Shown here one piece after another: positions 6,451-34,743 of a DNA stretch of 64,000 nucleotides (the stretch's first letter is position 1; each line of letters begins with the position of its first letter). Below the pieces are notes generated by a model. It was not told the DNA's origin. It saw only the letters and a program-made list of their open reading frames with translations, and ran no database searches. Origin of the DNA: Vibrio sp. HB236076 (GTDB lineage Bacteria > Pseudomonadota > Gammaproteobacteria > Enterobacterales > Vibrionaceae). Location: NCBI RefSeq assembly GCF_040957575.1, contig NZ_CP162601.1:806001-870000 (forward strand), written 5' to 3'. The position numbers and the translations under genes are program-made.

Positions 6451-6510
6451 AGACCAATCTCACGCTTTTTTCTGCGCTATCACAGGCCACAGACGTCATC
6501 AGATTGGTGT
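6451..6510. repeat. 60-bp internal-deletion copy of the ATACCAATCT palindromic element
   Basis: Both terminal repeats are present (AGACCAATCT at 6451-6460, AGATTGGTGT at 6501-6510). Between them are only the first bases of the left arm and the right-arm segment CGCTTTTTTCTGCGCTATC plus CCACAGAC. About 100 internal bases are missing relative to the full copies. It fills the gap between the convergent lipoprotein gene and arcA and could form a short hairpin. Confidence 0.8.
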
Positions 6511-6512
6511 TA

Positions 6513-14454: not shown

Positions 14455-14615
14455 ATACCAATCTAACTAAATAGCTGGTCACCCTAGCTGGTTAAAAAAC
14501 TCGATAACGTCGTTAAGAAAATAATCTGTAGAGCAACGACTAACTGTATTTTCTTGCCTTGTTCTCAAGCTTGATTCTGCACTATCATTGACCACATACT
14601 TAATCAGATTGGTAT
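14455..14615. mobile_element. Palindromic MITE-like element, copy A (161 bp)
   Basis: Perfect terminal inverted repeats ATACCAATCT (14455-14464) and AGATTGGTAT (14606-14615). The two arms align along their whole length when one is reverse-complemented: GGTCA, TAGC, AACTCGATAAC-like and AAGAAAAT blocks occur in the same order. The element can therefore form a single hairpin of about 70 bp. It carries no ORF. It sits between the thr terminator and the 3' end of grcA. Confidence 0.85.
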
Positions 14616-14630
14616 GATTTCACGGTATTA

Positions 14631-15008
14631 TTACAGGGAGTCGGTAAAAGTGCGCGCAACGACATCGCGTTGCTGCTCTGGGGTTAGTGAATTGAATCGC
14701 ACCGCATAGCCCGATACTCGAATGGTCAACTGTGGGTATTTCTCGGGGTGGTCGATGGCATCGAGCAGGGTTTCGCGTTTTAACACGTTGACGTTGAGGT
14801 GTTGTCCCCCTTCGACTCTCACCGGTTGCTCGACGCTAACAGGCCGGCTGGTGTATTGTCTGAGTGTTTCTAGCGGCAATGTTTGTTCGATTTGATCTTC
14901 CTGTGCAGCGGCGACGCAGCGACCGATTTGGCGCTGGTTGTCCACTAACCATACCGAATTGAGCAAGGCCAGATCACTGGCTTGAGTAATTTGTAAAGCT
15001 TGAATCAT
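14631..15008 (-). CDS. grcA: Autonomous glycyl radical cofactor
   Basis: GrcA (YfiD) is a small protein that replaces the oxygen-damaged C-terminal part of pyruvate formate-lyase. It has 125 residues, near the usual 127. The glycyl-radical segment [19 protein letters not shown] places the radical at Gly100, and the C-terminal helix [13 protein letters not shown] is typical. A perfect FNR-type box lies 63-76 bp upstream of the start, in line with the known FNR activation of E. coli yfiD. The grcA, ung, srmB and trmN genes lie in one neighbourhood in both E. coli and here, although other genes intervene here. Confidence 0.97.
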
Positions 15009-15070
15009 AGCGCACCCATTGCGTTGTTTGACAGTGTGGTTAGGTATAACCGAAAAAGGCTCAACCTCTG

Positions 15071-15084
15071 TTGATGTATATCAA
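15071..15084. promoter_or_regulatory. Perfect FNR-type box upstream of grcA
   Basis: TTGATGTATATCAA matches TTGAT-N4-ATCAA exactly, 63-76 bp before the grcA start. This spacing is compatible with activation from near -41. E. coli yfiD is known to be activated by FNR. I could not find the second upstream FNR site that E. coli has. Confidence 0.82.
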
Positions 15085-15314
15085 AAAAAGGGCGGCTATC
15101 TGAAATGATGATTCTCTTTTTTTGTGCAGCCCATTCACCCTCTTTGTGCGCAAGGGCGAGCAGGACCAACAAGTGCGTAAGGCGTTGTTATTGACTTTGT
15201 CTTTATAAGGCATTGATTGATTATTAGATTTATTTTTATCGATAAAATTAAAAAAGTGGCATTATTCTTTCATAGGAAAAAAGGTGTGTTGTTGTCCTAT
15301 CAGAGGTGATTATT

Positions 15315-15398
15315 ATGGCTGTTTCTCGTCCTGCTCTTCCTGTCCCCCATCGTCAAATTACTGGCCGCGGTCATCATCGAACGCCGCAACGTCATTAA
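15315..15398 (+). CDS. Possible 27-residue small protein
   Basis: ATG at 15315 is preceded by GAGGTGAT with a 5-base gap, a strong ribosome site in an otherwise non-coding region. The product starts MAVSRPALPVPHRQITGRG and ends in a His/Arg-rich tail (HHRTPQRH). It has no hydrophobic stretch and resembles no family I know. It could be a small basic protein, a leader peptide, or chance. It is followed by repeat copy B and then ung, 393 bp downstream. Confidence 0.3.
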   Translation: MAVSRPALPVPHRQITGRGHHRTPQRH

Positions 15399-15424
15399 TC
15401 TCTGTCTCACCTGCGCGCGGGTTT

Positions 15425-15585
15425 ATGTCCATCTCATTAAATAGCGGGTCACTATAGCGGGTTAAAAAGCTCGATAACAACGTTATGAAAAACAATGGTA
15501 GAAAGACGGCTCACTGTCTTTTCTTGCTTTGTTTCACGCTTTTATCTTGCGCTATTATGGATAAACGATTTAATCAGATGGGGAT
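15425..15585. mobile_element. Palindromic MITE-like element, copy B (161 bp)
   Basis: Same length and internal order as copy A (ATAGCGGGTCA, GGGTTAAAAAGCTCGATAAC, TTTTCTTGC, CTTGCGCTATTATGG), with decayed ends (ATGTCCATCT and AGATGGGGAT). The end drift suggests an older insertion. It lies between the small ORF and ung. Confidence 0.75.
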
Positions 15586-15790
15586 AACAGGCCCGCGCTT
15601 TGACGGTGAGTACCCTATGCAGGTTAATGGTGTTGATTAGTATCTTGTTATACTAGAGCGGTAGTATGCCTGTGTCCGGCTGTGTTTTTCGATGGCTATC
15701 AGATTGCGCTGAGGCGAAGTACCTTAGTGATGTAATTTTTGTTAGGATCCCCTAAACTGAAATCAATCAAATGACTTATAGGGGCTCGTC

Positions 15791-16507
15791 TTGTCGCATT
15801 ATTCTTGGGAGCAATTTTTTGATTCCGTCCAACAACAGGATTATTACCCGCAAATTTTGAATTTTGTCGCTGAGCAGCGCGCGCAAGGTAAAGTGGTCTT
15901 TCCGCCACAAAGCGATGTCTTTAATGCGTTTCACTCGACGCCATTTGAAAAAATCAAAGTGGTGATCTTAGGTCAAGACCCTTACCACGGCAAAGACCAA
16001 GCGCACGGTTTGTGCTTTTCTGTTCGCCCCGGGATCAAACCGCCACCTTCTTTAGTCAATATCTACAAAGCGTTAGTCGACGATATCGACGGCTTTGAAA
16101 CGCCTACGCACGGCTATTTACAGTCTTGGGCAACACAAGGGGTGTTTATGCTCAACACGGTGTTAACGGTAGAGCAGGGCAAAGCGCACTCTCACGCTAA
16201 ATGTGGTTGGGAGCGCTTCACTGATCAGGTGATTGACTGCATTAATGATAAGCAAAGCGGGGTGGTCTTTTTACTGTGGGGGGCGCATGCGCAAAAAAAA
16301 GGCCGTATGATTGATACCGAGAAACACTGTGTGTTGAGTGCGCCGCACCCGTCCCCTTTGTCCGCCCACCGCGGTTTTTTTACCAGTCGACCTTTTTCAA
16401 AGGCCAATGCGTACTTACAGGCTCAGGGAAAGCAAATCATCGATTGGCGCTTACCCCGTCTGGCAACGGATCTTGAGCCGTCATCTGACGCGAACACATT
16501 GCTCTAA
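15791..16507 (+). CDS. ung: Uracil-DNA glycosylase
   Basis: Removes uracil from DNA in base-excision repair. It has 238 residues with a TTG start at 15791 (TAGGGG just upstream); no ATG fits the N-terminus of the family. The water-activating motif GQDPYHG contains D63, FSVRPG and LLNTVLTV follow, and [12 protein letters not shown] provides H186 and the DNA-intercalating loop. Close to E. coli Ung (229) in all conserved parts. It appears to be transcribed alone. Confidence 0.97.
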
Positions 16508-16795
16508 AAGTGAGTGGTAAAAAGGGCGTGTGACGTTTTGCGCCAAGGTGCGACGTTGCCTTGTTCGTTTTGCCCTAGATGACAACAATCGAGAGTGCGC
16601 ACGGGTTGTTGAGAACTATGGCTTATTGAGAACTATGGGGTTTCGAGCCACTCTCGACGGTCGAGAGACAAGACGCGATTGATACGTTGGACGTTTGATA
16701 CGTTAGGCGTTGATAATGACAAATGGGTGAGAAGAAGAAAGAGGCGTTAATGAGGCTTTAAGCCCCAACGAGGCTTAAAGCCATGGGAGTGGTTG
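16508..16795. repeat. Repeat-rich gap between ung and the DUF3545 gene
   Basis: No gene. It contains paired short direct repeats TTGAGAACTATGG (16609-16621 and 16626-16638), paired TTGATACGTT (16679-16688 and 16695-16704), a perfect palindrome CTCTCGACGGTCGAGAG (16651-16667) and a perfect 11-bp hairpin (16754-16782). Confidence 0.7.
16754..16782 (-). terminator. Hairpin downstream of the DUF3545 gene
   Basis: Arms GGCTTTAAGCC (16754-16764) and GGCTTAAAGCC (16772-16782) pair perfectly around a 7-base loop, 13 bases beyond the stop of the minus-strand gene. There is no U tract, so it may protect the 3' end rather than terminate on its own. Confidence 0.5.
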
Positions 16796-16981
16796 TTAGA
16801 GTTCTATGTCGTCGAGAGAATATTCACCGCCCATATCGAGCTCTCTCAGTTCCTTGAGTAGATTGCGACGATCATTCATTGCTTCGATCTCGCGCCATTT
16901 ACGCTTCACCGGTTTAGAACGGGTACGGCGTGGGGTTTCATAATCAAAATCCAACAAGTCATTCAATTGGATGCCATCCAT
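16796..16981 (-). CDS. DUF3545 family small protein
   Basis: A 61-residue acidic/basic mixed protein of unknown function. The core VKRKWREIEAMNDRRNLLKELRELD and the acidic C-terminus (SLDDIEL) match what I recall of the DUF3545 family of marine gammaproteobacteria. It should be largely helical and cytoplasmic; there is no signal or membrane segment. The ATG follows AGAGAGGTGG. Single-gene unit between ung and the alanine/glycine symporter gene. Confidence 0.8.
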   Translation of the reverse strand: MDGIQLNDLLDFDYETPRRTRSKPVKRKWREIEAMNDRRNLLKELRELDMGGEYSLDDIEL

Positions 16982-17462
16982 AAGCCACCTCTCTTTATTA
17001 AACTCTTGATTTATTGTGTTACAGCCCGAGCATAACTGGGCTTTGTTGCGTATTTGTGTCTATTCCGTGACGTTTAAAAGTAAATAAGCAACGTCTTTAT
17101 ACTAGTCGAAAGCAAAATTAAAAACCAAGTATTGCGAAAAGGAAATGTTGTAATATCTCGTTGAGATCTCATTATTTCTTCATCTTAAATGAGTATGTTA
17201 TCCAAACCTTGGCTTCAAAAGCACAGGCGATTGGCGATAAAATTGCGCTTTTAAGTGTTATGTTTCATATTGATTTTTGTGGTGTGTCATTGCATTATCC
17301 CGCGGTCAAAAAAACGCAGTATCATAAAATGGAAGCACGATGCGATATTTATAACCATAATTGCTTGAACTTTTAGCTGTTCTTAACCCTTTTGACACAT
17401 AACAGGCAATTTTATATGGAAGGGCATGGAGCACGTACTGCGCCACTCACTTTGAGGAACTT
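16982..17462. other. 481-bp gap upstream of the symporter gene
   Basis: AT-rich divergent promoter region of the DUF3545 gene and the symporter gene. The ribosome site TGAGGAA precedes the symporter ATG. No further structure recognised; a frame at 17161-17376 lacks a ribosome site and homology. Confidence 0.4.
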
Positions 17463-18896
17463 ATGACAGACTTAGTCAATTTAATGAACGACCTTTTATG
17501 GGGATCTATCCTTATTTATCTTTTGGTTGGCGTGGGAATATTTTTTACTTTTCGTTTAGGCTTTATCCAAATTAGGCACTTTACTCACATGTTTAGTGTG
17601 TTAAAAAATAGCCGTAAAGCCGACAAATCCGGTATTTCGTCGTTTCAGGCCTTGTGTACCAGTTTGGCTGCCCGAGTGGGAACCGGCAATATGGCTGGGG
17701 TGGCAGTGGCCATTACCCTAGGCGGTCCTGGTGCCATTTTTTGGATGTGGGTTGTCGCCGTGGTGGGTATGGCGACGGCGTTTGCAGAAAGTACATTAGC
17801 GCAACTCTACAAAACAAAAGACAGTGATGGGAATTTTCGTGGCGGCCCAGCCTATTATATGGAAAAGGGCCTTGGCATGCGTTGGATGGGCTCGCTGTTT
17901 TCTGTTTTGCTGTTGATCGCCTTTGGGTTCGTATTTAATGCGGTACAAGCCAATTCGATTGTCAATGCGATGGAAACCGCGTTTGGTTGGAACAACCTTT
18001 ATGTCGGTATTGTGATCGCCGTATTAGCGGGTATCGTTATTTTTGGTGGTATTAAGCGCATCGCGAAAACCGCCGAGCTCATTGTTCCGGTGATGGCGTT
18101 AATTTACTTAGCGATCGCGGTGAGTATTTTATTGCTCAACATCAATAAGCTGCCTGATGTCTTGACGTTGATCTTTGCCAATGCCTTTGGTTTTAAAGAG
18201 GTGGCCGCCGGTGGTTTGGGCTATGCCATTGCACAAGCGGTCCTCAATGGGGTGAAACGCGGCCTGTTTTCCAATGAAGCGGGAATGGGGTCGGCGCCAA
18301 ATGCCGCGGCAGCTGCAACGCCATACCCTCCTCATCCCGCCTCGCAGGGCTACGTACAAATGATGGGGGTGTTTGTCGATACTATCGTGATTTGTAGCTC
18401 AACCGTGGCGATTATTTTGATGTCCGGTGAGTATGTGCCACACGGTGAGATCACTGGGATTGAATTAACGCAAGCCGCGTTGAGCTCTCAAGTGGGCGAC
18501 TGGGGCAGTACCTTTATCGCGGTAGCCATTTTCTTTTTTGCCTTTACCTCTATTATTGCCAATTACTCTTATGCCGAGACCAACTTATTGTTCTTAGAGC
18601 GCAAAGGAAAAGTAGGGATTGTCTTTTTCCGCTTTGCTGTTTTGGCGATGGTTATTTTTGGCTCTGTGGCGTCACTGCCTGTGGTGTGGGGACTGGCTGA
18701 TGTTTCGATGGGATTAATGGCGATTGTCAACTTAGTGGCGATCTTGTTGCTGTCGGGCATCTGTGTCAAATTGGCCAAAGACTATAATTTGCAGCTTAAG
18801 CAAGGCAAAGTTCCGACCTTTGATATCAAAAATTACCCAGAGCTTGAGTCACAAATTGAACCGGGAATTTGGGGTAAAAAAGACACGACGGAGTAA
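17463..18896 (+). CDS. Alanine/glycine:cation symporter family protein
   Basis: Inner-membrane Na+ (or H+) coupled carrier of the AGCS family (DagA/AlsT type) for alanine or glycine uptake. It has 477 residues and about 11 hydrophobic segments. Family signatures include SSFQALCTSLAARVGTGNMAGVA, FRGGPAYYMEKGL and RGLFSNEAGMGSAPNAAAAA. E. coli YaaJ belongs to the same family. The exact substrate cannot be read from the sequence. Monocistronic, with its own terminator. Confidence 0.93.
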   Translation: MTDLVNLMNDLLWGSILIYLLVGVGIFFTFRLGFIQIRHFTHMFSVLKNSRKADKSGISSFQALCTSLAARVGTGNMAGVAVAITLGGPGAIFWMWVVAVVGMATAFAESTLAQLYKTKDSDGNFRGGPAYYMEKGLGMRWMGSLFSVLLLIAFGFVFNAVQANSIVNAMETAFGWNNLYVGIVIAVLAGIVIFGGIKRIAKTAELIVPVMALIYLAIAVSILLLNINKLPDVLTLIFANAFGFKEVAAGGLGYAIAQAVLNGVKRGLFSNEAGMGSAPNAAAAATPYPPHPASQGYVQMMGVFVDTIVICSSTVAIILMSGEYVPHGEITGIELTQAALSSQVGDWGSTFIAVAIFFFAFTSIIANYSYAETNLLFLERKGKVGIVFFRFAVLAMVIFGSVASLPVVWGLADVSMGLMAIVNLVAILLLSGICVKLAKDYNLQLKQGKVPTFDIKNYPELESQIEPGIWGKKDTTE

Positions 18897-18901
18897 TATC
18901 A

Positions 18902-18932
18902 ACAAGCCATACGCGAGTCGTATGGCTTTTTT
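18902..18932 (+). terminator. Terminator of the symporter gene
   Basis: Perfect 10-bp arms AAGCCATACG (18902-18911) and CGTATGGCTT (18917-18926), loop CGAGT, then a T run. Confidence 0.95.
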
Positions 18933-19079
18933 TATTAGGCCACGCGACACTGACAATTCATGGCTATTGAATCAATATGTAAAGTCATAGAGACAGCGCC
19001 GCGGTTTTTGAGTACCCTTATCGCTATAATTTTCGCTGAAGCGAAGCGTTAGTGAACGGTGTACCGAGTAGGAAGATAT

Positions 19080-19853
19080 ATGCTAATTGTTGTTTCCCCC
19101 GCTAAGACCTTGGATTATGAGTCTCCATTGGCGACAGAGAAATATTCTCAGCCTGAACTGATCGAACATTCAAAGCAATTGATTGACGTTTGCCGACAGT
19201 TGACCCCAGCCGACATTGCCACCTTGATGAAAGTCAGCGACAAGATTGCCTCGCTCAACGTTGCTCGCTTTGCCGAGTGGAGTGAAACCTTTAGCCCAGA
19301 GAACGCTCGCCAAGCAATTTTGGCTTTTAAAGGGGATGTCTATACCGGCCTTGATGCTCAGAGCTTAAGCGAAGCCGATTTTGACTATGCCCAGCAACAT
19401 CTTCGCATGCTATCGGGCTTGTATGGCCTGCTAAAGCCGTTAGACCTAATGCAAGCGTACCGCCTGGAGATGGGGACCAAGCTAGATAACCCACGCGGCA
19501 GTAACCTTTATCAATTCTGGGGTGATATTATCACGGATAAGCTTAATCAAGCGTTGGCAGATCAAGGTGACAACGTGCTGATTAACTTGGCGTCAAACGA
19601 GTATTTTAAAGCCGTCAATAAAAAAACCTTGGACGGCCAGATCATTACTCCGGTGTTTAAAGACCAAAAAAATGGTCAATACAAGGTCATCAGTTTTTAT
19701 GCCAAAAAGGCGCGTGGCATGATGGCGCGTTACATCATTGAAAACCGTATCGAGTCTGTGGCTCAACTGACTGAGTTTGATGTGGCCGGGTATTACTTTG
19801 CCAGTGACGAGTCGTCGCCAACGGAGTTAGTCTTTAAGCGCGAAGAGCAATAA
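19080..19853 (+). CDS. yaaA: Peroxide stress protein YaaA (DUF328)
   Basis: YaaA lowers free iron and limits DNA and protein damage during H2O2 stress in E. coli. It has 257 residues (E. coli 258), beginning [16 protein letters not shown] and containing [48 protein letters not shown] and [14 protein letters not shown], all family landmarks. The start at ATG 19080 follows TAGGAAGA; an in-frame upstream GTG lacks such a site. Confidence 0.96.
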
Positions 19854-19865
19854 ACCGCGCTAATA

Positions 19866-19900
19866 AAGAAAAGCCGCATACGAGATGCGGCTTTTTTTAT
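19866..19900. terminator. Terminator between convergent yaaA and srmB
   Basis: Arms AAGCCGCAT (19871-19879) and ATGCGGCTT (19885-19893) with a 5-base loop and a T run on the plus strand. An A-rich left flank gives a weaker T run on the minus strand, so it may serve both genes. Confidence 0.92.
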
Positions 19901-19905
19901 GGCGA

Positions 19906-21135
19906 TTACTTTTTCTTTTTTACTTTGCTTTTGGCTTTTTTCTTTACGGCGTCACTTTTGACTTTTTTCTTTTTCTTAAAAGTCGGCTTTTTGTGCTGAG
20001 GACGCAAGCCGTCGATGTAGCGCTCTTTGATCTCTTCTTTGCAGTAGCGGGCCACTCGTTCAATCATGGGTTGATCATGGGCTTCGACCAATGAAATCGC
20101 GTTGCCCTTTTTACCCGCGCGCGCAGTACGACCGATGCGGTGTAAGTAAACATCCGCACTGCGTGGCATGTCGTAGTTAATGACATAGCCAATGTCTGGT
20201 AAGTCAATACCACGCGCGGCGACGTCCGTCGCCAAGAGTATTTTGACTTCACCATCGCGAAAGCGTCGAATGGCATTGTTGCGACGGTCTTGCGGCATCT
20301 CACCTTGTATCCATGCACATTGGCACTGCCAGCTTTCTAATGTCGCGCGAAGTTCGGCGAGAATGTCTCGTGTTTTTACGAAGATGATTGTGCGCTCTTC
20401 ATGGCTGGTTAACAATTGGCGCAACATTGCGTTTTTGTGCGCTTTATTGTCGGCACGGTGATACCACTGGGTGATTTTTTTACGCTCTCTGCGCGACGGT
20501 TCAGCGTCAATATTGGCTGGGTCTTTTAACAAATCTTGGCAAAAACCATCGACGCCTTTGCCTTCCAATGTGGCAGAAAACAACAGCGTTTGTTTGCGCC
20601 AGCGACATTCGTTAGACAGTTTGTCGACCGTCGGACCAAAGCCCATGTCGAGCATGCGATCCGCTTCGTCGAGAATTAACCACTCAATCGCACGGCAATC
20701 AAAACGCTCAGCTTGGATGTATTCGATCAATCGGCCTGGGGTGGCGACAATGATGTCTTGAGTCGCGGCGAGGATATCGGCGTGATCTTGATATTGAACA
20801 CCGCCGGTAATGGTCGCTACGTTCAGGTTAGTATGGCAGGCAAGGGCTTTGGCTTGATCGGCAATTTGCATCGCTAACTCTCGAGTTGGCGTTAAGATCA
20901 AAATACGCGCAGGCCCGGGTTTGCGACGCGGAAAATCGAGCAGGTATTGCAACGCGGGCAATACAAAAGCGGCGGTTTTTCCTGTCCCTGTTGGGGCTGA
21001 TGCCATGACATCACGGCCGTCTAAGGCGGCGGGAATGGCTTGAGATTGAATAACGGTTGGGCGCTCGAAGTTCATGGCTTCAATAGCGCTCAACAGAGCG
21101 TGGTCTAGCTCTAATTCGGCAAAGGATCTGATCAA
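19906..21135 (-). CDS. srmB: ATP-dependent RNA helicase SrmB
   Basis: DEAD-box helicase acting early in 50S ribosome assembly. The start is TTG 21135, with GGAGA 6 bases upstream, giving MIRSFAELELD like the E. coli N-terminus; the upstream GTG at 21150 would overlap the ribosome site. The product has 409 residues. Motifs in order are APTGTGKTAA, PTRELAMQ, TPGR, LDEADRMLDMGF, FSATLEG, ATDVAARGIDLP and HRIGRTARAGK. The C-terminus is a lysine-rich tail (mostly K with S, A and V) likely to bind RNA. The neighbour trmN follows the E. coli arrangement. Confidence 0.95.
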   Translation of the reverse strand: MIRSFAELELDHALLSAIEAMNFERPTVIQSQAIPAALDGRDVMASAPTGTGKTAAFVLPALQYLLDFPRRKPGPARILILTPTRELAMQIADQAKALACHTNLNVATITGGVQYQDHADILAATQDIIVATPGRLIEYIQAERFDCRAIEWLILDEADRMLDMGFGPTVDKLSNECRWRKQTLLFSATLEGKGVDGFCQDLLKDPANIDAEPSRRERKKITQWYHRADNKAHKNAMLRQLLTSHEERTIIFVKTRDILAELRATLESWQCQCAWIQGEMPQDRRNNAIRRFRDGEVKILLATDVAARGIDLPDIGYVINYDMPRSADVYLHRIGRTARAGKKGNAISLVEAHDQPMIERVARYCKEEIKERYIDGLRPQHKKPTFKKKKKVKSDAVKKKAKSKVKKKK

Positions 21136-21212
21136 AGTAAGTCTCCACACTCAAAAATCAGTCAAAAATGGAGGCGCATTATATCGACTCTGTTAATGAG
21201 TTTACAGATGAT

Positions 21213-21947: not shown

Positions 21948-22378
21948 GAGGTTGTCGCGATAAAACCCTGATTATACCCCTCACCGAGAAGCGAGGGTAG
22001 GGCTTAAGGTCTGTTCGTGAGCACTTTTTATCGACAAACAAGCCCCTGTCTCTGTGATATTAATTTCACTCAATCGGCGGCTCACCCTAGCGGGTTAAAA
22101 ACTCGATAACGTTGCTAAGAGAATCACTGGTATAATAACGGCTTAGATTATTTTCTTGCCTTTCTCTCACCCTTTTTTTCTGCGCTATCATTGTTCACAC
22201 ACTGAATCAGATAGGTATGACTGTGGTGCGTCAGCTTTACAGTTAATCATAATAAGATTTTAGTCAATACTTGATAAAATGGCATGCTTTCGTCATTATT
22301 CTCGGCCTTTTGTGCGCCTTGCTTGAGGCTGGCACTAAGCACACACAACATTTTAATAGTATATAAAAGGGTTTGGCT
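21948..22378. other. 431-bp divergent gap trmN/brnQ with repeat copy C
   Basis: Contains repeat copy C and about 160 bp of AT-rich brnQ promoter region. No other gene seen. Confidence 0.45.
22057..22218. mobile_element. Palindromic MITE-like element, copy C (162 bp)
   Basis: Ends ATATTAATTT and AGATAGGTAT are slightly decayed. The interior matches the other copies (GGCTCACCCTAGCGGGTTAA, ACTCGATAACGTTG, TTATTTTCTTGCC, TCTGCGCTATCATTG). It lies about 160 bp upstream of brnQ and may affect its promoter. Confidence 0.82.
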
Positions 22379-23683: not shown

Positions 23684-23748
23684 CGACCAGAGGAACTGAT
23701 GAGCGTTGGTTGGATTCAATCAGAGTCGGCTTGTCAACATAAAGCAAT

Positions 23749-23777
23749 CAATAAGGCCCGTTGTTCGGGCCTTATTG
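23749..23777 (+). terminator. Hairpin downstream of brnQ
   Basis: Perfect 12-bp arms CAATAAGGCCCG and CGGGCCTTATTG around TTGTT, 65 bases after the brnQ stop. The T run is missing, so termination strength is uncertain. Confidence 0.6.
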
Positions 23778-23833
23778 GATCGTTTAAGGTCGTAAATGGG
23801 TCAGCCAATAGCGCCAAACCAACGAAGGCGCTT

Positions 23834-24008
23834 AGACCAATCTCACTCAGTCGTTGGTCACCCTAGCGGGTTAAAAAATCGATAACATCGTGAATAAAAC
23901 ACCATGTAGAATAACGACTTAGATTCCATTCTTGACAAGAAAAGGCTTGCCTTGTTGTCCAGCTTTTTCCTGCGCTATCATTGCCTACAGACTTGTTGAG
24001 ATTGGTAT
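23834..24008. mobile_element. Palindromic MITE-like element, copy D (175 bp)
   Basis: Ends AGACCAATCT and AGATTGGTAT. Longer than the others because about 14 bases are inserted in the right arm (GACAAGAAAAGGC region near 23934-23950). Its right end overlaps the fldB stop codon. It occupies the whole space between the brnQ hairpin and fldB. Confidence 0.83.
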
Positions 24009-24526
24009 TATAGCGTGTCGTGATATTCCACTAACACTTGTTCACACCACTTTTCAATTCTCTCGTCGCTCAGTTCATACTGGGAGTCTTCGTCTAGGGC
24101 AAGGCCAACAAAGTGCTCACCTGACGCGGTCAGCGCTTTTGAGGCGTCAAATTGATAGCCTTGATTAGGCCAATAGCCCAGCATGTGCGCTCCACCGGCT
24201 TTGACTTGATCGTGCAATAGTCCCATGGCGTCTAAAAACCACTCCCCATAGCCTTCTTGATCGCCAAGGCCAAAAAGGGCGACGTGTTTGCCGGCCAGGG
24301 ATACGGTGGCAATGTCACCCCAAATTTGCGCCCAGTCTTCTTGGATTTCACCAAAGTCCCAAGTAGAAATGCCCAGTAATAGCAGGTCGTAATCGGCCAT
24401 TTGGTTTAATGGGGTGTCTTTGACATTGTAAATATCGACGAGCTCTTCACCGATGATGGCTCTGATTTTTTCTGCGGCCATCTCGGTATAGCAGGTTGTC
24501 GAGCCATAAAATAGTCCGATTTTCAT
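24008..24526 (-). CDS. fldB: Flavodoxin FldB
   Basis: Long-chain flavodoxin, an FMN electron carrier. It has 172 residues (E. coli FldB 173). The phosphate loop is [14 protein letters not shown], the FMN-ring segments are [13 protein letters not shown] and [16 protein letters not shown], and [18 protein letters not shown] is the long-chain and FldB-type signature. It is upstream of and divergent from xerD, as FldB neighbours xerD in E. coli. The stop codon TAA (24008-24010) uses the terminal base of repeat copy D, so the element defines the C-terminus HDTL. Confidence 0.95.
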
Positions 24527-24680
24527 TGTTACTCTCTTCGGTTTTCGACACTGGGGGCGAATTGTACCTGTAAATGGCCTTTTTGTGCACTGACAATGTC
24601 ATCGAGGTTTTGCTTGTCACGCTTTCGCGCTAGTATTAGAGCTATTAGCCTTAATGTATATATCAATCAACAGGTAAAGT

Positions 24681-25598: not shown

Positions 25599-25617
25599 CC
25601 CAATAAAGGTGACAGGA

Positions 25618-26406: not shown

Positions 26407-26492
26407 TCACTCAGCTCGATACGCCCAATCGCGATTGGGCAGCGCTACGCTTTTGACTTGCGCTGTTTGGCTGAAAAAACACTGAAGTTGAT

Positions 26493-28232: not shown

Positions 28233-28426
28233 GGCACAGGCGACAAGCGCTGAGCCATCGGTGGCGAACAAACCGGGGGCGTTGACGGATTTGTTTGGTT
28301 TATCGCCTCGGCTTAAGGGGGCGATGGCGCTTGAGCCAAGTGAGTTAGTCCAAAAAATTCCTGTATCTCTGTCACATTTTTCAGTAGAATTCTCCGGTTA
28401 AATTCTATGCGAAAATGTAGAGCACC

Positions 28427-29525
28427 ATGTTTGAAATCAATCCTATAAAAAATCGCCTCCAGGATGTGTCTGAACGGACCAATATCCTGAGGGGGTATCT
28501 TTGACTATGACGCCAAAAAAGAGCGTCTAGAAGAAGTCAATGCTGAATTAGAACAACCCGATGTTTGGAATGAGCCTGAGCGTGCACAAGCATTAGGCAA
28601 AGAGCGCGCGAGCCTTGAAGCCGTGGTTGAAACCATCGATGCCCTTGTCCAAGGTGTTGACGATGTTGACGGCTTGCTTGAGTTGGCGGTTGAAGCCGAA
28701 GATCAAGAAACGTTTGATGAAATTGAGCCCGAGTTAGCCGAGCTTGAAAGCAAGCTTGAGTTGTTGGAGTTTCGCCGCATGTTTGCCGGCGATCACGACA
28801 GCTCAGATTGTTATATTGACTTACAGGCAGGCTCTGGGGGCACAGAGGCACAAGATTGGACCTCCATGATGCTGCGCATGTACTTGCGCTGGGCTGAGGC
28901 CAAAGGCTTTAAGGCCGAAGTTATCGAAGTGTCTGAAGGCGATGTCGCCGGTCTTAAATCGGCCACGGTACGCATCGTTGGCGAGTACGCTTACGGCTGG
29001 TTGAGAACGGAAACCGGTGTACACCGCTTAGTGCGAAAATCGCCCTTCGATTCCGGTGGTCGTCGTCATACGTCTTTTGCCTCTGCGTTTGTCTACCCTG
29101 AAGTGGATGAAAACATTGCCATTGATGTCAACCCTGCCGACTTGAGAATCGATGTGTATCGCGCGTCGGGCGCCGGTGGTCAGCACGTTAATACCACAGA
29201 ATCGGCGGTTCGTATTACTCACATTCCGACCAACACTGTGGTTCAATGTCAAAACGATCGCTCGCAACACAAAAACAAAGACCAAGCGATGAAACAGCTG
29301 CGCGCTAAGTTGTTTGAGTTGGAGTTACAAAAGCAAAATGCCGAAAAGCAAGCCAACGAAGACGCGAAATCCGACATTGGTTGGGGCAGTCAAATCCGCT
29401 CTTACGTGCTTGATGACTCTCGTATTAAAGATTTGCGAACCGGGGTAGAAAACCGCAATACCCAAGCAGTTTTAGACGGCGATTTAGATAAATTTATCGA
29501 AGCAAGCTTAAAATCAGGGCTTTAA
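28427..29525 (+). CDS. prfB: Peptide chain release factor 2, programmed +1 frameshift
   Basis: RF2 terminates at UGA and UAA codons. Translation starts at ATG 28427 ([19 protein letters not shown]). Codon 26 is an in-frame UGA at 28502-28504. The frameshift cassette AGGGGGTATCTTTGAC (28490-28505) shifts the ribosome +1 from CTT to GAC, continuing as [12 protein letters not shown] to the stop at 29525. The total is 365 residues, equal to E. coli RF2. The internal SD-like AGGGGG sits 3 bases before the CTT slip codon. The SPF stop-recognition motif (RKSPFDSGG) and the GGQ hydrolysis motif (GAGGQHVN) are present. Low RF2 raises frameshifting, an autoregulatory loop. The product cannot be read as one continuous frame. 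lysS follows by 29 bp. Confidence 0.98.
28490..28505 (+). promoter_or_regulatory. prfB programmed frameshift site
   Basis: SD-like AGGGGG, spacer TAT, slippery CTT and in-frame TGA followed by C. As far as I recall it is identical to the E. coli cassette. Confidence 0.97.
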
Positions 29526-29554
29526 GCCTTACTGAATGACAGGATACATCGATT

Positions 29555-31072
29555 ATGACTGATGATGTGCAAAACGATCACATACAAGAAGAAAACAAAC
29601 TGATTGCCGAACGCCGCGCCAAACTCGACGCGATTCGTCAAAACTGCAGTGCTAATGGCCACCCTAATGACTTTCGTCGTGACAGCTTAGCAGGCGATCT
29701 GCAAGCTGAGTTTGGTGACAAAAGTAAAGAAGAGCTCGAAAGCTTAAATCATGTGGTTGCGGTCGCAGGCCGAGTGATGGCCAAGCGCGGCCCATTTTTG
29801 GTATTGCAAGAAACCTCTGGCCGCATTCAGGCGTACGCCGCTAAACCGGTGCAAAAAGAGCTGAAAGAAAAATATCAAGGCCTTGATATCGGTGACATTA
29901 TTGGTGTTAAAGGCGCACTGCATAAGTCGGGCAAAGGCGATCTGTATGTCAATATGGAAGAGTACGAGTTATTGACCAAAGCGCTGCGCCCATTGCCTGA
30001 AAAATTTCACGGCCTTACCGACCAAGAAATGCGCTACCGTCAGCGTTACGTCGATTTGATCGTCAACGAAGACTCGCGCCACGCCTTTATCATTCGCTCT
30101 AAGCTGGTCTCTGCCATTCGTCAATTTATGATGAGCAAAAACTACTTAGAAGTCGAAACGCCGATGATGCACGTGATTCCAGGCGGTGCAACCGCTCGTC
30201 CTTTCATCACGCATCACAATGCGTTGGATATCGACATGTACTTGCGCGTCGCGCCAGAGCTTTACCTCAAGCGCTTGGTTGTTGGCGGGTTTGATCGCGT
30301 GTTCGAAATTAACCGCAACTTCCGCAACGAAGGCTTATCACCGCGTCACAATCCAGAATTTACCATGATGGAATTCTATCAAGCGTACGCCGATTACAAA
30401 GATTTGATGGATTTGACTGAAGAGATGCTCAGCAGCGTTGCGCTATCGGTATTGGGCTCGACCTCATTGCCTTACGGTGACGAAGTGGTTGAGTTTGGCG
30501 GTACTTACGCTCGCATGAGTATGTTTGAAGCGATTAAACACTACAACCCAGAGCATCAAGATATTCAAGCCCTGACTGAGCAAGATTTGCAAGACCGTGA
30601 GCGTATGGTCGCAATTGCTAAATCGTTGCACATCGAGGTGGAAAGCTTCTGGACTTGTGGTCAGCTGCTCGAAGAGATCTTTGGTGAAACGGCAGAGCCT
30701 AAACTGATTCAGCCGACCTTTATCACCGGTTACCCTGCGGACATTTCACCACTGGCTCGCCGCAGTGATGACAACCCATTCTTTACCGATCGCTTCGAGT
30801 TCTTTATCGGAGGACGCGAGGTGGCGAATGGCTTCTCTGAGCTCAATGATGCTGAAGATCAAGATGCGCGCTTTAAAGCGCAAGTAGATGCGAAAGACGC
30901 TGGTGACGATGAGGCAATGTACTATGATGCCGATTACATCACTGCGCTTGAGCACGGCTTGCCACCCACGGCAGGCCAGGGCATCGGTATCGATCGCCTA
31001 GCGATGTTGTTTACCAACACGCACACCATTCGCGATGTCATTTTGTTCCCAGCCATGCGCCCGCAAGGCTAA
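29555..31072 (+). CDS. lysS: Lysyl-tRNA synthetase, class II
   Basis: Charges tRNA-Lys. It has 505 residues (E. coli 505). The N-terminal OB-fold anticodon domain (about 60-145) includes [11 protein letters not shown] and [12 protein letters not shown]. Class II motif 1 is near [14 protein letters not shown] [17 protein letters not shown], motif 2 is [22 protein letters not shown], and motif 3 is [11 protein letters not shown]. Likely an operon with prfB, as in many gammaproteobacteria, closed by a strong terminator. Confidence 0.98.
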
Positions 31073-31096
31073 ACGGTTTGATGCCATGACGATGAG

Positions 31097-31128
31097 AAAA
31101 CCACCTCTTTGCGAGGTGGTTTTTTTTG
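31097..31128 (+). terminator. Terminator of prfB-lysS
   Basis: Perfect 11-bp arms AAAACCACCTC and GAGGTGGTTTT with a 5-base loop and a T run. Confidence 0.96.
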
Positions 31129-31296
31129 TTTGTGGAATAATTTTAACGAATTGCATACGCTAAAACATTCACATTGTTCAACTTTTAGACTATTCTTTAT
31201 TCATCATCTCAATGACATGATGCGTTCGGTGGCGAGCCTTTTAAAAACCGTCACGCTTCACATCAATAGCTAGCCAATAAAGGGAAAACGCTTGCT

Positions 31297-31323
31297 TTAA
31301 CCCGTGGGTTAACGTTGGCCAAC
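31297..31323. promoter_or_regulatory. Two adjacent palindromes just upstream of the vpsR-like gene
   Basis: TTAACCCGTGGGTTAA (31297-31312) is followed after one base by GTTGGCCAAC (31314-31323), ending 20 bases before the start codon. These could be operator sites or part of the mRNA leader. No known site assigned. Confidence 0.35.
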
Positions 31324-31343
31324 CTCGGCTTAAGTGGGGGACG

Positions 31344-32690
31344 ATGAAAAAACTTCGCGAGGCGGCCTCGATCAAAATCTTGGTGGTGGTGGGCGCTAAA
31401 GCCCCTGAGTGGTTTGAGCAACTTCAATCCTTAGGCTGGACCTGTCATTTGTGTTCGGATTTGCGCACCGCACACAGTTTAATCCAAGACATTGGCCCTT
31501 GTATTGCGGTGGTTGATCTCAGCCGTGACACGTTTAGTCTCAATGGCGTCGCTCACCTAGTCAATGCGTACCAATACGTGCGTTGGATGGCATTGATCCG
31601 CGATCAGCAAATGGATATGCCTTCCATTAACCAGTTTATCGTGCACTTTTGCATCGACTTTTTTGTCGTGCCTATTCCTTCTCATCATCAATTATTAGCC
31701 ACCTTAGGCCATCAATTGGGCATGGTGCGGCTAGAGCAACGCGTCTGGCAGTCGCAAAGTATTGGGGTTACTCAATTTACCGGGCAATCGTCGGCGATCA
31801 CTCACTTGCGACAAATGATCAAACGTTGGTCTTACAGTGACGTGAGTGTCTTTATTCACGGCGATGTTGGGGTGGGAAAAGAGCGATTAGCACGGGCCAT
31901 TCACGAGTCGTCTTCGCGGGCTCACAAGCCATTTTCTGTGGTGCGTTGTGCCGCTTTAAGCGATTACTCGTTAGAAACTCAAGTCTTTGGTATTGGCATT
32001 GAACACGATACGCTTTCGGTGTTAGAGAAAAGCCATGGCGGTACGGTGCTATTTTACGACTTTATGTCGATGTCGCTTGAACAACAACAAAACTTGCTGC
32101 ACGTCTTACAAGACGGACAAGTACACAGCTCGGTGGGCTTAAAGTCTATTGATGTGCGCATTTTAGTCGCCAGTAGCTCCGCGGTCGACAAAGCCATGGC
32201 CGAGCGGGGACTGCTGCGCGCTTTGTACGATTATGTAAGTATCTTGCCCATTACCGTACCGAACTTACGCGAACGGCAAGCGGATATTTTGCCCTTGGTG
32301 GATGATTACATTACCCGTTTTTGTCAGGAGTATCGGTTGCCAAAGCGCGTTCTCGATCCGCAAGTGGAAATACTGCTGCAAAACTATGCGTGGCCCGGTA
32401 ATGTTAGGGAGTTGATCAATAAAATTAAGCGGGCGCTTTTGATCTGTGATGGCGATGTGATTGGGCTTGAGCACTTTGATTTTAATCAACAGCCACAACA
32501 AAGTTCAACCCTCAAAGCCATTCGCGAAAAAAGCGAGTGCGAGGCGTTAAAGCGAGCGTTGGAAAATCATGATGGACAAGTGATGTTGGTGGCGAAAGAG
32601 CTCAAAATTTCTCGTGCCACCATGTATCGTTTACTCAATAAATACAACTTATTACCCGATTCAGGCAGTGAATCATCTCCGTATTTTTAA
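31344..32690 (+). CDS. vpsR: VpsR-like enhancer-binding-protein-family regulator
   Basis: Homologue of VpsR, the c-di-GMP-responsive activator of Vibrio polysaccharide and biofilm genes. The location next to lysS is as in V. cholerae. It has 448 residues: a receiver-like domain with D58 (GPCIAVVDLSRD), an AAA+ domain with Walker A GDVGVGKE (173-180), and a Fis-type HTH at the C-terminus (VAKELKISRATMYRLLNKYN). The sigma-54 GAFTGA loop is absent (VFGIGIEHDTLSVLE instead), and the Walker B region reads VLFYDF, so the usual Glu after Asp is Phe. By family knowledge it therefore acts with sigma-70 and is probably ATPase-defective. Whether the organism has vps genes cannot be seen here. Confidence 0.87.
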   Translation: MKKLREAASIKILVVVGAKAPEWFEQLQSLGWTCHLCSDLRTAHSLIQDIGPCIAVVDLSRDTFSLNGVAHLVNAYQYVRWMALIRDQQMDMPSINQFIVHFCIDFFVVPIPSHHQLLATLGHQLGMVRLEQRVWQSQSIGVTQFTGQSSAITHLRQMIKRWSYSDVSVFIHGDVGVGKERLARAIHESSSRAHKPFSVVRCAALSDYSLETQVFGIGIEHDTLSVLEKSHGGTVLFYDFMSMSLEQQQNLLHVLQDGQVHSSVGLKSIDVRILVASSSAVDKAMAERGLLRALYDYVSILPITVPNLRERQADILPLVDDYITRFCQEYRLPKRVLDPQVEILLQNYAWPGNVRELINKIKRALLICDGDVIGLEHFDFNQQPQQSSTLKAIREKSECEALKRALENHDGQVMLVAKELKISRATMYRLLNKYNLLPDSGSESSPYF

Positions 32691-32813
32691 ATCATCTAGG
32701 AGTGAAATAGTCAATCGTCATGATTTACTATTCAATGACAGAGTAATTACCTTTATATTCAACTAAGTGTCTATTTTTGTGTATTTTGTTGTCATTGTTG
32801 GTTATGATTTAGT

Positions 32814-32834
32814 CAGTCATTAGGGTAATGACTG
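32814..32834. promoter_or_regulatory. Inverted repeat upstream of the small ORF
   Basis: CAGTCATT and AATGACTG are perfect 8-bp arms around AGGGT, 29 bases before the small-ORF start and next to a TATGAT hexamer (32803-32808). It may be an operator or a leader hairpin. Confidence 0.4.
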
Positions 32835-32862
32835 TGTGGATTATTATTCTCAGGAGGGGCAT

Positions 32863-32976
32863 ATGAAAACTGGTTTATTAGCGCGTTTTTATCTGTCCTG
32901 TTTGCTACTTTGTAGCGGCTCCGGTTCGTACTTGGTTATGTGCCATCGCGCCGTGTTGCGACCTATGAATAATTAA
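32863..32976 (+). CDS. Possible 37-residue small membrane or leader peptide
   Basis: ATG 32863 has the ribosome site CAGGAGG 5 bases upstream. The product begins MKTGLLARFYLSCLLLCSGS, a positively charged start followed by a hydrophobic stretch, and ends HRAVLRPMNN. It looks like a short signal or membrane peptide, with cysteines at 13, 17 and 27. No family recognised. It precedes a DUF1127 gene by 90 bp, with a hairpin in between. Could be a leader peptide controlling that gene, or a small membrane protein. Confidence 0.4.
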   Translation: MKTGLLARFYLSCLLLCSGSGSYLVMCHRAVLRPMNN

Positions 32977-32997
32977 TCCGTGCCTACTTATCAGGCT

Positions 32998-33044
32998 GCG
33001 GAAATAGCAGTCTGATCTCGTCTTATTGGCACTGTTATTTCTGC
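32998..33044 (+). other. RNA hairpin between the small ORF and the DUF1127 gene
   Basis: GCGGAAATAGCAG (32998-33010) pairs with CTGTTATTTCTGC (33032-33044) over 13 positions, with two G-U pairs. In addition CTCC (33044-33047) can pair with GGAG (33054-33057), the ribosome site of the next gene. It has no T tract. It may be an mRNA processing or translation-control structure. Confidence 0.5.
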
Positions 33045-33066
33045 TCCTAAATCGGAGATAAATAAC

Positions 33067-33324
33067 ATGCGTCCATCTATTTACATTTCGTTAGCGACAT
33101 GGCTAATCCAACAAGATTTGCACCGTCAAGATCGCCAATGGCGGCGTAACCTTCGCCGTCGCAGCTATCATGTACCTTGGCACAATGCGCATTTGTTGAG
33201 AGACATTGGTCTTGATCCACAAGGAAGGCCATTGGGGCAAGAAATGCCAATTGAGCAAGCCACTCAGCGCCGACTGGCTCATTTGACTCGCATCGTGAGG
33301 TGGCGGATGAGAACGGTGAGTTAG
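33067..33324 (+). CDS. DUF1127 family small arginine-rich protein
   Basis: An 85-residue basic protein. The core RQWRRNLRRRSYHVPWHNAHLLRDIGLDPQGRPLG matches the DUF1127 (YjiS-like) pattern of an Arg-rich helix followed by hxxLLxDIGL. DUF1127 proteins are small cytoplasmic proteins, some linked to RNA binding and nutrient responses in alphaproteobacteria; the role in Vibrio is unknown. Ribosome site GGAGATAA. Possibly cotranscribed with the preceding small ORF. Confidence 0.8.
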   Translation: MRPSIYISLATWLIQQDLHRQDRQWRRNLRRRSYHVPWHNAHLLRDIGLDPQGRPLGQEMPIEQATQRRLAHLTRIVRWRMRTVS

Positions 33325-33433
33325 CGAAAGGCCAATCACGACTTTTGACGGTTGTGATTGGCCTAATGCGAGCGCTCTTTTGCATCAAAGCCCAAGCGCA
33401 ACGGTCAAGACGGTTGCGCTGGGTCTTTCTCTT

Positions 33434-34468
33434 CTAAGGGCATGGATTCGAAAACTCGGTACTGATGGCCAAAATGCCTTCTAAAATAGAATCGCTCAAA
33501 GTGACATCAATACTATCAATGTTTTGCTTGAGTTGAGGCAAGGTTGTCGCCCCGATGATATTGGAAGCGACAAACGGTCTTTGATTGACGAAAGCCAATG
33601 CCATATCAACGGGATCCATACCGTGATCTCGAGCCAATTCTACGTACGCTTGGGTGGCTTTAATCCCCTGTGGTGTAAAGTAGCGTTGGAAGCGCTCAAA
33701 CAAGGTACAACGAGCGTTTTCAGGCCGTTGGCCATTGAGGTATTTACCGCTTAAACAACCAAAGGCCAAAGGGGAGTAGGCCAATAGTTGTACCCCTTCA
33801 TAGTGGCTGATTTCCGAGAGGCCCACTTCAAAGCTGCGATTTAACAAGTTGTAAGGATTTTGAATCGAGACAATACGAGGAAGATCGTGTTTTTCTGCTA
33901 GGCGCAGCAAACTCATCACACCCCAAGGCGTTTCATTCGAGACACCAAGGTAGCGAACCTTGCCCGCGTTGACGAGTTCTGTCAGCGCCTCAAGGGTTTC
34001 GATTAAGGTGACTTCTTCTTGTTCGTCGTGCTCTGGGTAGTTTAATTGGCCAAAAAAATTGGTTTTGCGCTGCGGCCAATGGATTTGATACAAATCGACG
34101 TAGTCGGTTTGTAAGCGTTGCAAACTCGAGTCGATGGCGAGGTGAATATTGCGACGATTTAAATTCATCGATTCGCGAATGTTGATACCTGTCCTCGGTC
34201 CAGCCACTTTAGTCGCCAAAACGATTTTTTCTCTTTTCCCCGATTGCTTAAGCCAGTTGCCGATATAGCGCTCTGTTTGGCCTTGCGTCTCTGGTTTGGG
34301 AGGGACGGGGTACATTTCTGCGGTATCAAAAAAATTGACGCCGTGATCCAAAGCCATATCCATTTGTAAAAATGCTTCACTTTGACTGTTTTGTTCGCCA
34401 AATGTCATAGTGCCTAGGCCAATTTTACTGATTTCTAGGCTTGAGTGAGGGAGTTTTGTATAAAGCAT
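33434..34468 (-). CDS. tas: NADP(H)-dependent aldo-keto reductase, Tas-like
   Basis: Aldo/keto reductase of the Tas group; E. coli Tas suppresses tyrosine auxotrophy and its natural substrate is not established. It has 344 residues (E. coli 346). The TIM-barrel signatures are GLGTMTFGEQNSQSEA, FFDTAEMYPVPP (catalytic Asp and Tyr), ATKVAGP (catalytic Lys), LYQIHWPQR (catalytic His), YLGVSNETPWGVM and SNIIGATTLPQL (cofactor phosphate loop). Lies between the DUF1127 gene and repeat copy E, transcribed alone. Confidence 0.92.
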   Translation of the reverse strand: MLYTKLPHSSLEISKIGLGTMTFGEQNSQSEAFLQMDMALDHGVNFFDTAEMYPVPPKPETQGQTERYIGNWLKQSGKREKIVLATKVAGPRTGINIRESMNLNRRNIHLAIDSSLQRLQTDYVDLYQIHWPQRKTNFFGQLNYPEHDEQEEVTLIETLEALTELVNAGKVRYLGVSNETPWGVMSLLRLAEKHDLPRIVSIQNPYNLLNRSFEVGLSEISHYEGVQLLAYSPLAFGCLSGKYLNGQRPENARCTLFERFQRYFTPQGIKATQAYVELARDHGMDPVDMALAFVNQRPFVASNIIGATTLPQLKQNIDSIDVTLSDSILEGILAISTEFSNPCP

Positions 34469-34583
34469 CTCCAGTCCTTTTTGATGGTTATCTTCTCCAC
34501 TATAGGGAAAGCGAGTGATGAGCGTAAAGAAAAATCTGTTATCGATCTCGAAAAATGGCCATCATTGACTAAAATGATAATAA

Positions 34584-34743
34584 TACCAATCTCACTTAAT
34601 AGCGGGTCGCCCTCACCGGTTTAAAAGCCCGATAACATCGTAAGAAAATCACGGGTAGCATAACGATGTACCGTCTCTTCTTGCCTTGTTCTTACGCTTT
34701 TTTCCTGCGCTATCATTGACCACAGGCTAAATCGGATTGGTAT
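34584..34743. mobile_element. Palindromic MITE-like element, copy E (160 bp)
   Basis: Ends ATACCAATCT (34584-34593) and GGATTGGTAT (34734-34743). The interior is as in the other copies (TTAATAGCGGGTCGCCC, CCCGATAACATCGTAAG, TCTTCTTGCCTTGTTCTTAC, CCTGCGCTATCATTGACC). The centre forms its own inverted repeat (CGGGTAGCATAACG with CGATGTACCG). It lies 25 bp upstream of the next gene. Confidence 0.86.

Follow-up and report, generated by a model that had tools for sequence, protein, structure and literature searches.

ERIC, a palindromic MITE of 127 bp whose reported hosts are Enterobacteriaceae and Vibrionaceae (PMC10969869), is the nearest analogue of the element analysed here, but is unrelated to it in sequence. 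As described for Photorhabdus, where they reach hundreds of copies, ERIC, MITEPlu5 and MITEEc1 share with our element a palindromic, gene-less MITE organization, strong secondary structure, ends that begin with TACC and a link to IS630-type transposons; they differ in length (~123–127 bp), in their 2-bp TA duplication and in sequence, with no homology detected (PMC6267812). YPAL, or RU-2, of Yersinia is likewise described as a ~168-bp palindromic, MITE-like intergenic element, with other ends and a TA duplication (PMC2759123), and REPs as 20–40-bp units (PMC3733652). On the transposase side, the account of the IS630 family (IS630, ISY100) gives a DDE transposase with N-terminal HTH domains, and its characterised members duplicate a TA dinucleotide (PMC2170065); the group described below belongs to this family and supplies ends similar to those of our element, but duplicates three bases, TNA, instead of two. 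Comparable in this respect are the Fot elements of the pogo superfamily, relatives within IS630-Tc1-mariner, most of which are described as duplicating 3 bp, TAA, in place of TA (PMC7386202), although these are full eukaryotic transposons and duplicate TAA rather than TNA.

We analysed a stretch of 64,000 nucleotides of Vibrio sp. HB236076 (the window) containing a dispersed family of palindromes, and followed the family into other genomes. We put at roughly 0.85 the probability that the repeats are a MITE moved in trans by TNA-duplicating IS630-family transposases that share its ends. MITEs as such are known; what is new is a MITE with a TNA duplication, tied to IS630-type insertion sequences (ISs); among the titles and abstract openings listed, none described this element or a TNA-duplicating IS630 group.

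Copies in the window

A reading made from the sequence alone had claimed five copies, and all were found with the proposed block order and nearly the proposed ends and lengths, scoring 108–162 bits with a covariance model of the family. Four sets of coordinates were exact, while copy 5 starts one base earlier than had been given. The copies and fragments, all on the + strand, are as follows (triplets are those at the left / right flank):

14455..14615, +, full copy 1 (locus L003), 161 bp with the outer A/T; 161.7 bits; TTA / TGA
15425..15585, +, full copy 2, ends diverged (ATGTCCATCT...AGATGGGGAT); 120 bits; TTA / TAA, read by eye
22057..22218, +, full copy 3, left end diverged; 108.8 bits; TGA / TGA, read by eye
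23834..24008, +, full copy 4, long form with 15-bp apical insert ACAAGAAAAGGCTTG; 108.1 bits; TTA / TTA
34583..34743, +, full copy 5 (locus L009); 117.8 bits; TAA / TAA
6451..6510, +, internally deleted copy, 60 bp, in which ~47 bp of the right end directly follow the left tip
~8830–8872, +, right-end fragment alone; nhmmer E 6e-4

The last two are additional to the five copies first noted; the deleted copy was matched by nhmmer at 1.1e-6 (6458–6511) and weakly by the covariance model (E 0.042). Allowing at most one mismatch, ATACCAATCT occurs 14 times in the window against 3.1 expected, a count reached in 0 of 100 shuffles.

The conserved ends proved nearly as first described, although copies 2 and 3 carry several changed end bases, and the terminal A and T that had been assigned to the ends are the outer bases of a target duplication. 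The element proper, TACC...GGTA, has terminal inverted repeats, TACCAATC...GATTGGTA, is ~159 or ~175 bp long and is flanked by a 3-bp TNA duplication; the long form owes its length to an apical insert of 13–15 bp. Among 212 matches in the loci fetched, 193 are full-length, with no room for a gene. Of the 17 partial matches outside the window, seven were inspected and all are deletions or assembly gaps, those in loci L080 and L083 being assembly gaps within the palindrome.

Each copy had also been proposed to form one long hairpin over its full length. The hairpin is real, but imperfect. In a nested structure of 65 pairs, derived from the same 32-copy alignment on which pairing was scored, 84.1% of cells are paired compared to 33–45% with partners slid by 1–3 columns, and changes on both sides occur in 133 cells compared to a shuffled mean of 61. 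The imperfect hairpin is thus supported by covariation. Single copies fold moderately, the five in the window at −27.5 to −44.5 kcal/mol; for 41 of 170 distinct full copies (40 random draws plus window copy 4, z −2.45), the mean z against shuffles was −4.3, with 83% below −2.

Genomic spread, target duplication and empty sites

The element was located at 76 places in its own genome (91 rows, 15 of which repeat a place on the opposite strand) and matched in 62 of 101 Vibrionaceae genomes, in line with the expected further copies. At the level of the order, matches, partly incomplete, were found in 79 of 247 genomes, and the hosts, many of them marine relatives of Vibrio, span more than a dozen genera, including Aliivibrio, Grimontia and Shewanella. 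The MITE was present in one of 72,556 plasmid records, absent from the phage records searched and without a match in 20,395 E. coli records.

Identical triplets flank 26 of 50 copies compared to a shuffled mean of 13.5, a count reached in 0 of 5000 shuffles, in a test that set aside six loci for lengths outside 150–200 bp and three copies for an end with over two mismatches; repeats of 2 or 4 bp showed no excess at the same copies. The own genome taken by itself gives a weaker signal (13 of 30 copies; shuffles average 8.0, and 99 of 5000 do as well). In a further genome, G130, 21 of 23 exact-end pairs are bounded by the same TNA on both sides, where shuffles average 10.2 and none of 10,000 comes up to that count; three exact-end pairs bounding 29–46-bp mini-palindromes and all unpaired ends were left out. 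The MITE therefore duplicates 3 bp, TNA, and not the 2-bp TA of an IS630-family MITE. In G130, four copies share one score. Near-identical copies with intact duplications suggest that the MITE was recently active in some genomes.

Orthologous empty sites were found for three insertions. In the clearest comparison, a filled site in Vibrio splendidus 10N.286.49.F1 corresponds to a single TAA at the empty junction in Vibrio sp. 10N.261.45.E2, with flanks 90–91% identical and a 1-bp indel nearby; the two further sites carry extra differences of ~10–17 bp. The 127 copies classified by gene context lie in tandem (70), convergent (42) and divergent (11) positions, and four overlap an ORF, the rest being intergenic. 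These varied positions, together with orthologous sites at which sister species lack the element, argue against conserved 3' UTRs, which had been named as the refuting case. Many copies, inverted ends, a 3-bp target duplication, empty sites and a group of ISs with similar ends all bear out the MITE reading.

IS630-type insertion sequences as candidate mobiliser

A search for a transposase gene bounded by the same terminal repeats had been proposed as a check, and IS630-family ISs with similar, not identical, ends exist, but none was found among the lone-end stretches inspected in the own genome. Their transposases score as NF033545 IS630 and PF13358 DDE_3, and their ends share the TACCAATC tip and a subterminal CTGGTCA / TGATC motif at bases 20–26. 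In G130, locus L280 reads TTA-TACCAATC...AATTGGTA-TAA around an IS630-type transposase; this IS copy is decayed, with a broken frame and flanks TTA/TAA. A related IS of 1103 bp with TACCAATC ends, carried by plasmids of Aeromonas, Citrobacter, Enterobacter and E. coli, has identical TNA at all eight copies read. Identical triplets also flank the ISs of P. toruni and Vibrio HDW18 (both TTA/TTA), Spartinivicinus (TGA/TGA) and Acinetobacter (TAA/TAA), and are missing from four (those of G130, V. halioticoli, V. crassostreae and S. mucosa) of the nine distinct ISs for which the two ends were read.

Beyond the 8-bp tip, IS ends match a MITE end at 10–15 of 20 bases, compared to 5–10 of 20 for 28 chance TACCAATC sites, the P. 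toruni right end, offset by one base in this comparison, giving 8 of 20. The MITE set comprised 30 distinct ends; two further ISs, L326 and L327, for which both ends could not be located, were left out. Over 28 bases the Acinetobacter and Skermanella ends match at 16–18, which is the background level (13–18), and the remaining correctly placed IS ends at 18–23. The MITE core (model positions 31–132) does not clearly resemble the interiors of the ISs (in the best case 12 of 200 shuffles scored as high), and the MITE is therefore not a simple internal deletion.

In the own genome, lone TACCAATC ends (20 stretches, from 100 of 165 sites) showed no transposase by eye or by tblastn, which covered the fetched stretches; they are mostly diverged, deleted or truncated copies, with some chance sites. 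One 4.5-kb end pair (L121), spanning S1-domain, cytidylate kinase and peptidase S49 genes, was rejected as chance. Among the 34 lone-end stretches of G130, 18 contributed 20 ORFs to a Pfam search and the rest were covered by tblastn with IS630 proteins, which gave L280 as the sole match among the G130 stretches. We infer that a transposase of the IS630 group moves the MITE.

Alternative explanations

It is unlikely, although the least so of the alternatives, that the host maintains the repeats site by site as structured RNAs or regulatory elements, for example as an attenuator, mRNA stabiliser or RNase III substrate. The covariation across the family would fit such a role, as would the mostly intergenic positions and the insertions common to sister species at some orthologous sites. 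Orthologous elements are also slightly more alike than their 60-bp flanks (95.8% versus 92.5%; 40 of 51 pairs), an excess to which the pattern used to retrieve the loci contributed. Against this, pairing survives 20 of the 60 one-sided changes seen at 17 orthologous sites, where the substitution spectrum predicts 18.7; two-sided changes number seven, five still paired, compared to a mean of 2.9 and a maximum of 9 with random partners. As pairing is lost about as expected without selection, a selfish element fits better than a host RNA gene. Target duplications and empty sites speak the same way, as do the lack of a fixed gene context or orientation (in tandem positions, 40 same and 30 opposite) and the absence of Rfam matches in the window at gathering scores.

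Slightly less probable is mobilisation by another TNA-type transposase, such as one of the IS5/IS1031 or PIF-Harbinger kind. Duplications of 3 bp are TNA in the IS1031 group of IS5 and TWA in Harbinger, and the former habit matches the element. However, searches with PF01609, PF13586 and PF13359 found no IS4/IS5-type or Harbinger-type partner: PF01609 had no match in the own genome and a single one in G130 (L200) that seems split between frames, PF13586 none in either and a match in one of nine genomes searched, and PF13359 none in 15 genomes. None of 30 PF01609 loci scanned had TNA-bounded inverted ends. Matching ends and the TNA duplication occur together in the IS630 group.

Membership of the ERIC family is very improbable. 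ERIC ends are likewise TACC...GGTA, and a link to IS630-type ISs has been drawn for MITEPlu5, a relative of ERIC (PMC6267812), but the homology suggested by the TACC ends was rejected: similarity is at chance level (482 and 288 of 1000 shuffles as high), and the family model, R1, run with default filters, left all 20 ERIC loci unmatched at E 10. ERIC is moreover described with TA duplications (PMC2759123), the copies examined by eye mostly had TA and not TNA, and our element is absent from the E. coli records. YPAL / RU-2 showed no similarity either (428 of 1000 shuffles as high). The REP-like alternative of the sequence-only reading, with REP/REPIN sequences moved by RAYT tyrosine transposases, shares palindromic, intergenic, many-copy character with our element but can practically be dismissed because of the target duplication, which REP/RAYT transposition is not known to leave, and a unit of 159–175 bp with two conserved ends stands against it as well.

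Proposed mechanism and implications

The repeats are most likely copies of a gene-less DNA transposon of ~159 or ~175 bp, with TACCAATC...GATTGGTA ends on a long imperfect palindrome, a MITE that would be moved in trans by IS630-group transposases, probably by cut-and-paste as described for ISY100 (PMC2170065). The palindrome may be kept through repeated amplification from structured copies, and after insertion copies lose pairing at about the neutral rate. In diverged form and lacking the IS ends, the core also occurs in a family whose genomes measure 2.3–2.6 Mb. More tentatively, and on balance doubtfully, a branch of IS630 may have shifted from TA to TNA cutting and captured a foreign palindromic core between its ends; if true, the core would help mobilisation via a hairpin or cruciform, or a host factor, and explain the spread.

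Each of the four possible TNA triplets reads as a stop codon, TAA or TGA, on one of its strands, and insertion at the stop codon of a gene therefore rebuilds the stop exactly. For example, the right triplet of copy 4 (24008–24010) is the TAA stop codon of ORF 24008–24526(−). Insertions at stop codons account for 12 of 151 copies, compared to 3.1% expected of intergenic TNA sites.

The MITE reading accounts for the dozens of intergenic hairpins that each genome of Vibrio and its relatives can carry, and names a candidate mobiliser. The TNA duplication offers a clean case in which to ask how an IS630/Tc1-mariner transposase comes to cut with a stagger of three bases instead of two, and insertion at stop codons points to one means by which a genome could tolerate many MITEs.

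Window copies, boundaries and target duplication

The five dispersed repeats picked out by the sequence-only reading are present where it placed them and share block order and length, except that the fifth begins at 34583 rather than 34584. Conserved ends hold for the family, but those of copies 2 and 3 have diverged, and the outermost A and T belong to the flanks: flank alignment excludes both from the element and gives TACC...GGTA as the conserved unit, with TNA on either side. A family covariance model scores the five copies at 108–162 bits, the motif occurs 14 times in the window versus 3.1 by chance, and no Rfam family matches anywhere in the window. One copy carries an insert and two fragments belong to the family as well.

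Features of the family in the window
23834-24008, copy 4, carrying a 15-bp insert
6451-6510, family fragment
about 8830-8872, family fragment

Identical flanking triplets were found in 26 of 50 copies (shuffled mean 13.5, reached in 0 of 5000), with no excess of 2- or 4-base flanking repeats in the same 50. The strain's own genome gave 13 of 30 by itself (shuffled mean 8.0, reached in 99 of 5000), and in genome G130, where four copies have one common score, the triplets agreed at 21 of the 23 exact end pairs (10.2 on average after shuffling, reached in 0 of 10,000). Within the window, copies 3 (TGA, by eye), 4 (TTA) and 5 (TAA) have identical triplets, and copies 1 (TTA/TGA) and 2 (TTA/TAA) unequal ones. 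G130 also holds three mini-palindromes of 29–46 bp that consist of the two tips only (L319, L320, L321), two of them with an identical TNA duplication. Foldback remnants, apparently with left-arm sequence at both sides, lie at 3500-3567 of locus L191 and at G000:C1:314889-314936.

Host range

Further copies, anticipated in the own genome and in other Vibrionaceae, were recovered in both by model search. In the own genome, 3.88 Mb on two contigs, there were 91 matches at at least 76 places, 15 of the 91 rows being the opposite strand of the same place and 150 of 1518 candidates having been scored. Counting this genome, matches occur in 62 of 101 genomes and 6 of 13 genera of the family, and in 79 of 247 genomes and 18 of 87 genera of the order. 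Six of those 79 were re-inspected: four, all of one genus, have core-like partial matches only, one combines a core-like with a weak full-length match, and one has three full-length matches. Setting the core-like genera aside leaves about 16, most known from match-table rows alone. A pattern scan gave at least 120 stretches; named hosts among those listed include many Vibrio, several Aliivibrio, Grimontia indica and three Shewanella. A single plasmid record of 72,556 matched, a 1.7-Mb replicon; the phage and E. coli records searched gave no match.

Core-only relatives without TACCAATC ends, covering about positions 31–132 of the model (loci L266, L267, L269, L270, L272, L274 and L268), occur in 2.3–2.6 Mb genomes of another family and in genome G276; their likeness to the element core was reached by 0 of 300 shuffles (1 of 300 for L272). 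Loci L080, L083 and L140 (Vibrio penaeicida TUMSAT-NU1) have N runs within the palindromes or next to them, as though assembly had failed at the hairpins.

Empty sites and gene context

Empty sites in sister species, which an insertion would predict, were found at three orthologous sites. At the first, V. splendidus 10N.286.49.F1 (L151) is filled and Vibrio sp. 10N.261.45.E2 (L068) empty; the junction has one TAA, the flanks are 90–91% identical and a 1-bp indel is near. The second compares an uncultured Vibrio (L085) with Vibrio sp. 14G-20 (L074), and the third an Aliivibrio MAG (L125) with A. finisterrensis (L111) and, over a more diverged flank, with Aliivibrio sp. S4MY1 (L058); these two sites show a further 10–17 bp of difference. 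The fetched loci also contain 53 pairs of filled orthologous copies, which are uninformative on the share of empty sites because the loci were chosen for carrying the element.

By a simple ORF caller, 127 classified copies comprise 70 tandem, 42 convergent and 11 divergent arrangements and 4 on an ORF. Relative to random intergenic TNA positions, the convergent share is raised (34% versus 26%) and the divergent share lowered (9% versus 16.5%). On one strand or the other, each of the triplets TAA, TGA, TTA and TCA reads as a stop codon, TAA or TGA. In 12 of 151 distinct copies, one of the flanking triplets coincides exactly with the stop codon at which a neighbouring ORF of 100 aa or more ends. 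Window copy 4 is among the twelve, its TTA duplication being the TAA stop of the convergent ORF 24008-24526; at two others (L134, L030) the triplets are unequal. Of all TNA sites that are intergenic or stops, 3.1% are of this kind (binomial p 0.002, based on 12/147 with loci that are not fully independent).

Hairpin structure and selection

The proposed full-length hairpin stands in that nested pairs run along the element, but it is imperfect, and single copies fall short of a perfect hairpin in stability. In the 65-pair nested structure derived from 32 copies, 84.1% of cells are paired versus 33–45% with slid partners, doubly changed cells number 133 versus 61 in shuffles, and the inner stem alternates among A-U, U-A and G-C pairs.

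Host selection and amplification were compared at 17 orthologous sites. One-sided changes from the paired state kept pairing in 20 of 60 cases (18.7 expected), and two-sided changes numbered seven (random partners: mean 2.9, maximum 9), five of them still paired. It therefore seems that pairing is lost freely after insertion, and the conserved structure would be a property of the amplifying lineage. Between species the elements are 95.8% alike versus 92.5% for 60-bp flanks, a slight excess that leaves room for weak constraint on the elements and is partly an effect of the search pattern.

Which form occupies a given orthologous site, the short one (about 161 bp) or the long one (about 175 bp), varies between sister species (L032/L068, L078/L066, L047/L104, L052/L113, L051/L089). 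The difference lies on the 3' side of the inner stem, and gene conversion or hairpin-templated repair could be its cause.

A candidate partner among IS630-type insertion sequences

Because of the TNA duplication, IS5- or Harbinger-type transposases were sought first, and no suitable gene turned up in searches with PF01609, PF13586 or PF13359. The expected transposase gene with the same terminal repeats was matched in part, by IS630-type insertion sequences whose ends are similar but not identical to those of the element. Among 46 G130 stretches spanning TACCAATC sites, a single one contained an IS, L280. Its ends are TACCAATCCGGAAAATTAACTGATCAG and TACCAATTAAAGTAAAGATATGATC; it encodes an IS630-type HTH protein and has its catalytic part split over broken frames. 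Relatives on plasmids have similar ends; one, of 1103 bp, is 99.9–100% identical across six plasmid records plus an E. coli plasmid, where the annotation gives a programmed frameshift. The IS proteins match the models NF033545 (IS630 family) and DDE_3.

The 1103-bp IS is flanked by identical TNA at all eight insertions read (four TAA, three TGA, one TCA; two of the 13 present in an Aeromonas caviae record plus six others). Flanks are TTA/TTA in P. toruni and Vibrio sp. HDW18, TGA/TGA in Spartinivicinus ruber and TAA/TAA in Acinetobacter johnsonii, and unequal in G130, V. halioticoli, V. crassostreae and Skermanella; for the V. pelagius and V. campbellii ISs, a complete pair of ends was not found. 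Copies of the TNA-duplicating IS630 element adjoin plasmid resistance genes, blaIMP-1 and aac(6')-Il, and an OXA-9-like gene (L329, L332).

Past the common tip, the IS ends agree with a MITE end at 10–15 of 20 positions versus 5–10 for 28 chance TACCAATC sites; the P. toruni end, placed wrongly in that comparison, scored 8/20. When 28 bases are compared, the seven closest ISs lie above background (Mann-Whitney p = 5e-6), and those of Acinetobacter and Skermanella do not. Sequence comparison gave no recognisable derivation of the MITE core from an IS interior.

In published descriptions, ISY100 and IS630 use TA as the insertion site and duplicate it (PMC2170065), the ERIC-related MITEPlu5 of Photorhabdus has been linked to IS630-type transposons with duplication of TA (PMC6267812), and in the pogo superfamily most Fot elements have TAA duplications (PMC7386202). 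Our element works like ERIC, a 127-bp palindromic MITE, although the two share no sequence homology, and it does not show the TA duplication of IS630-type elements; hence we regard it as a new variant.
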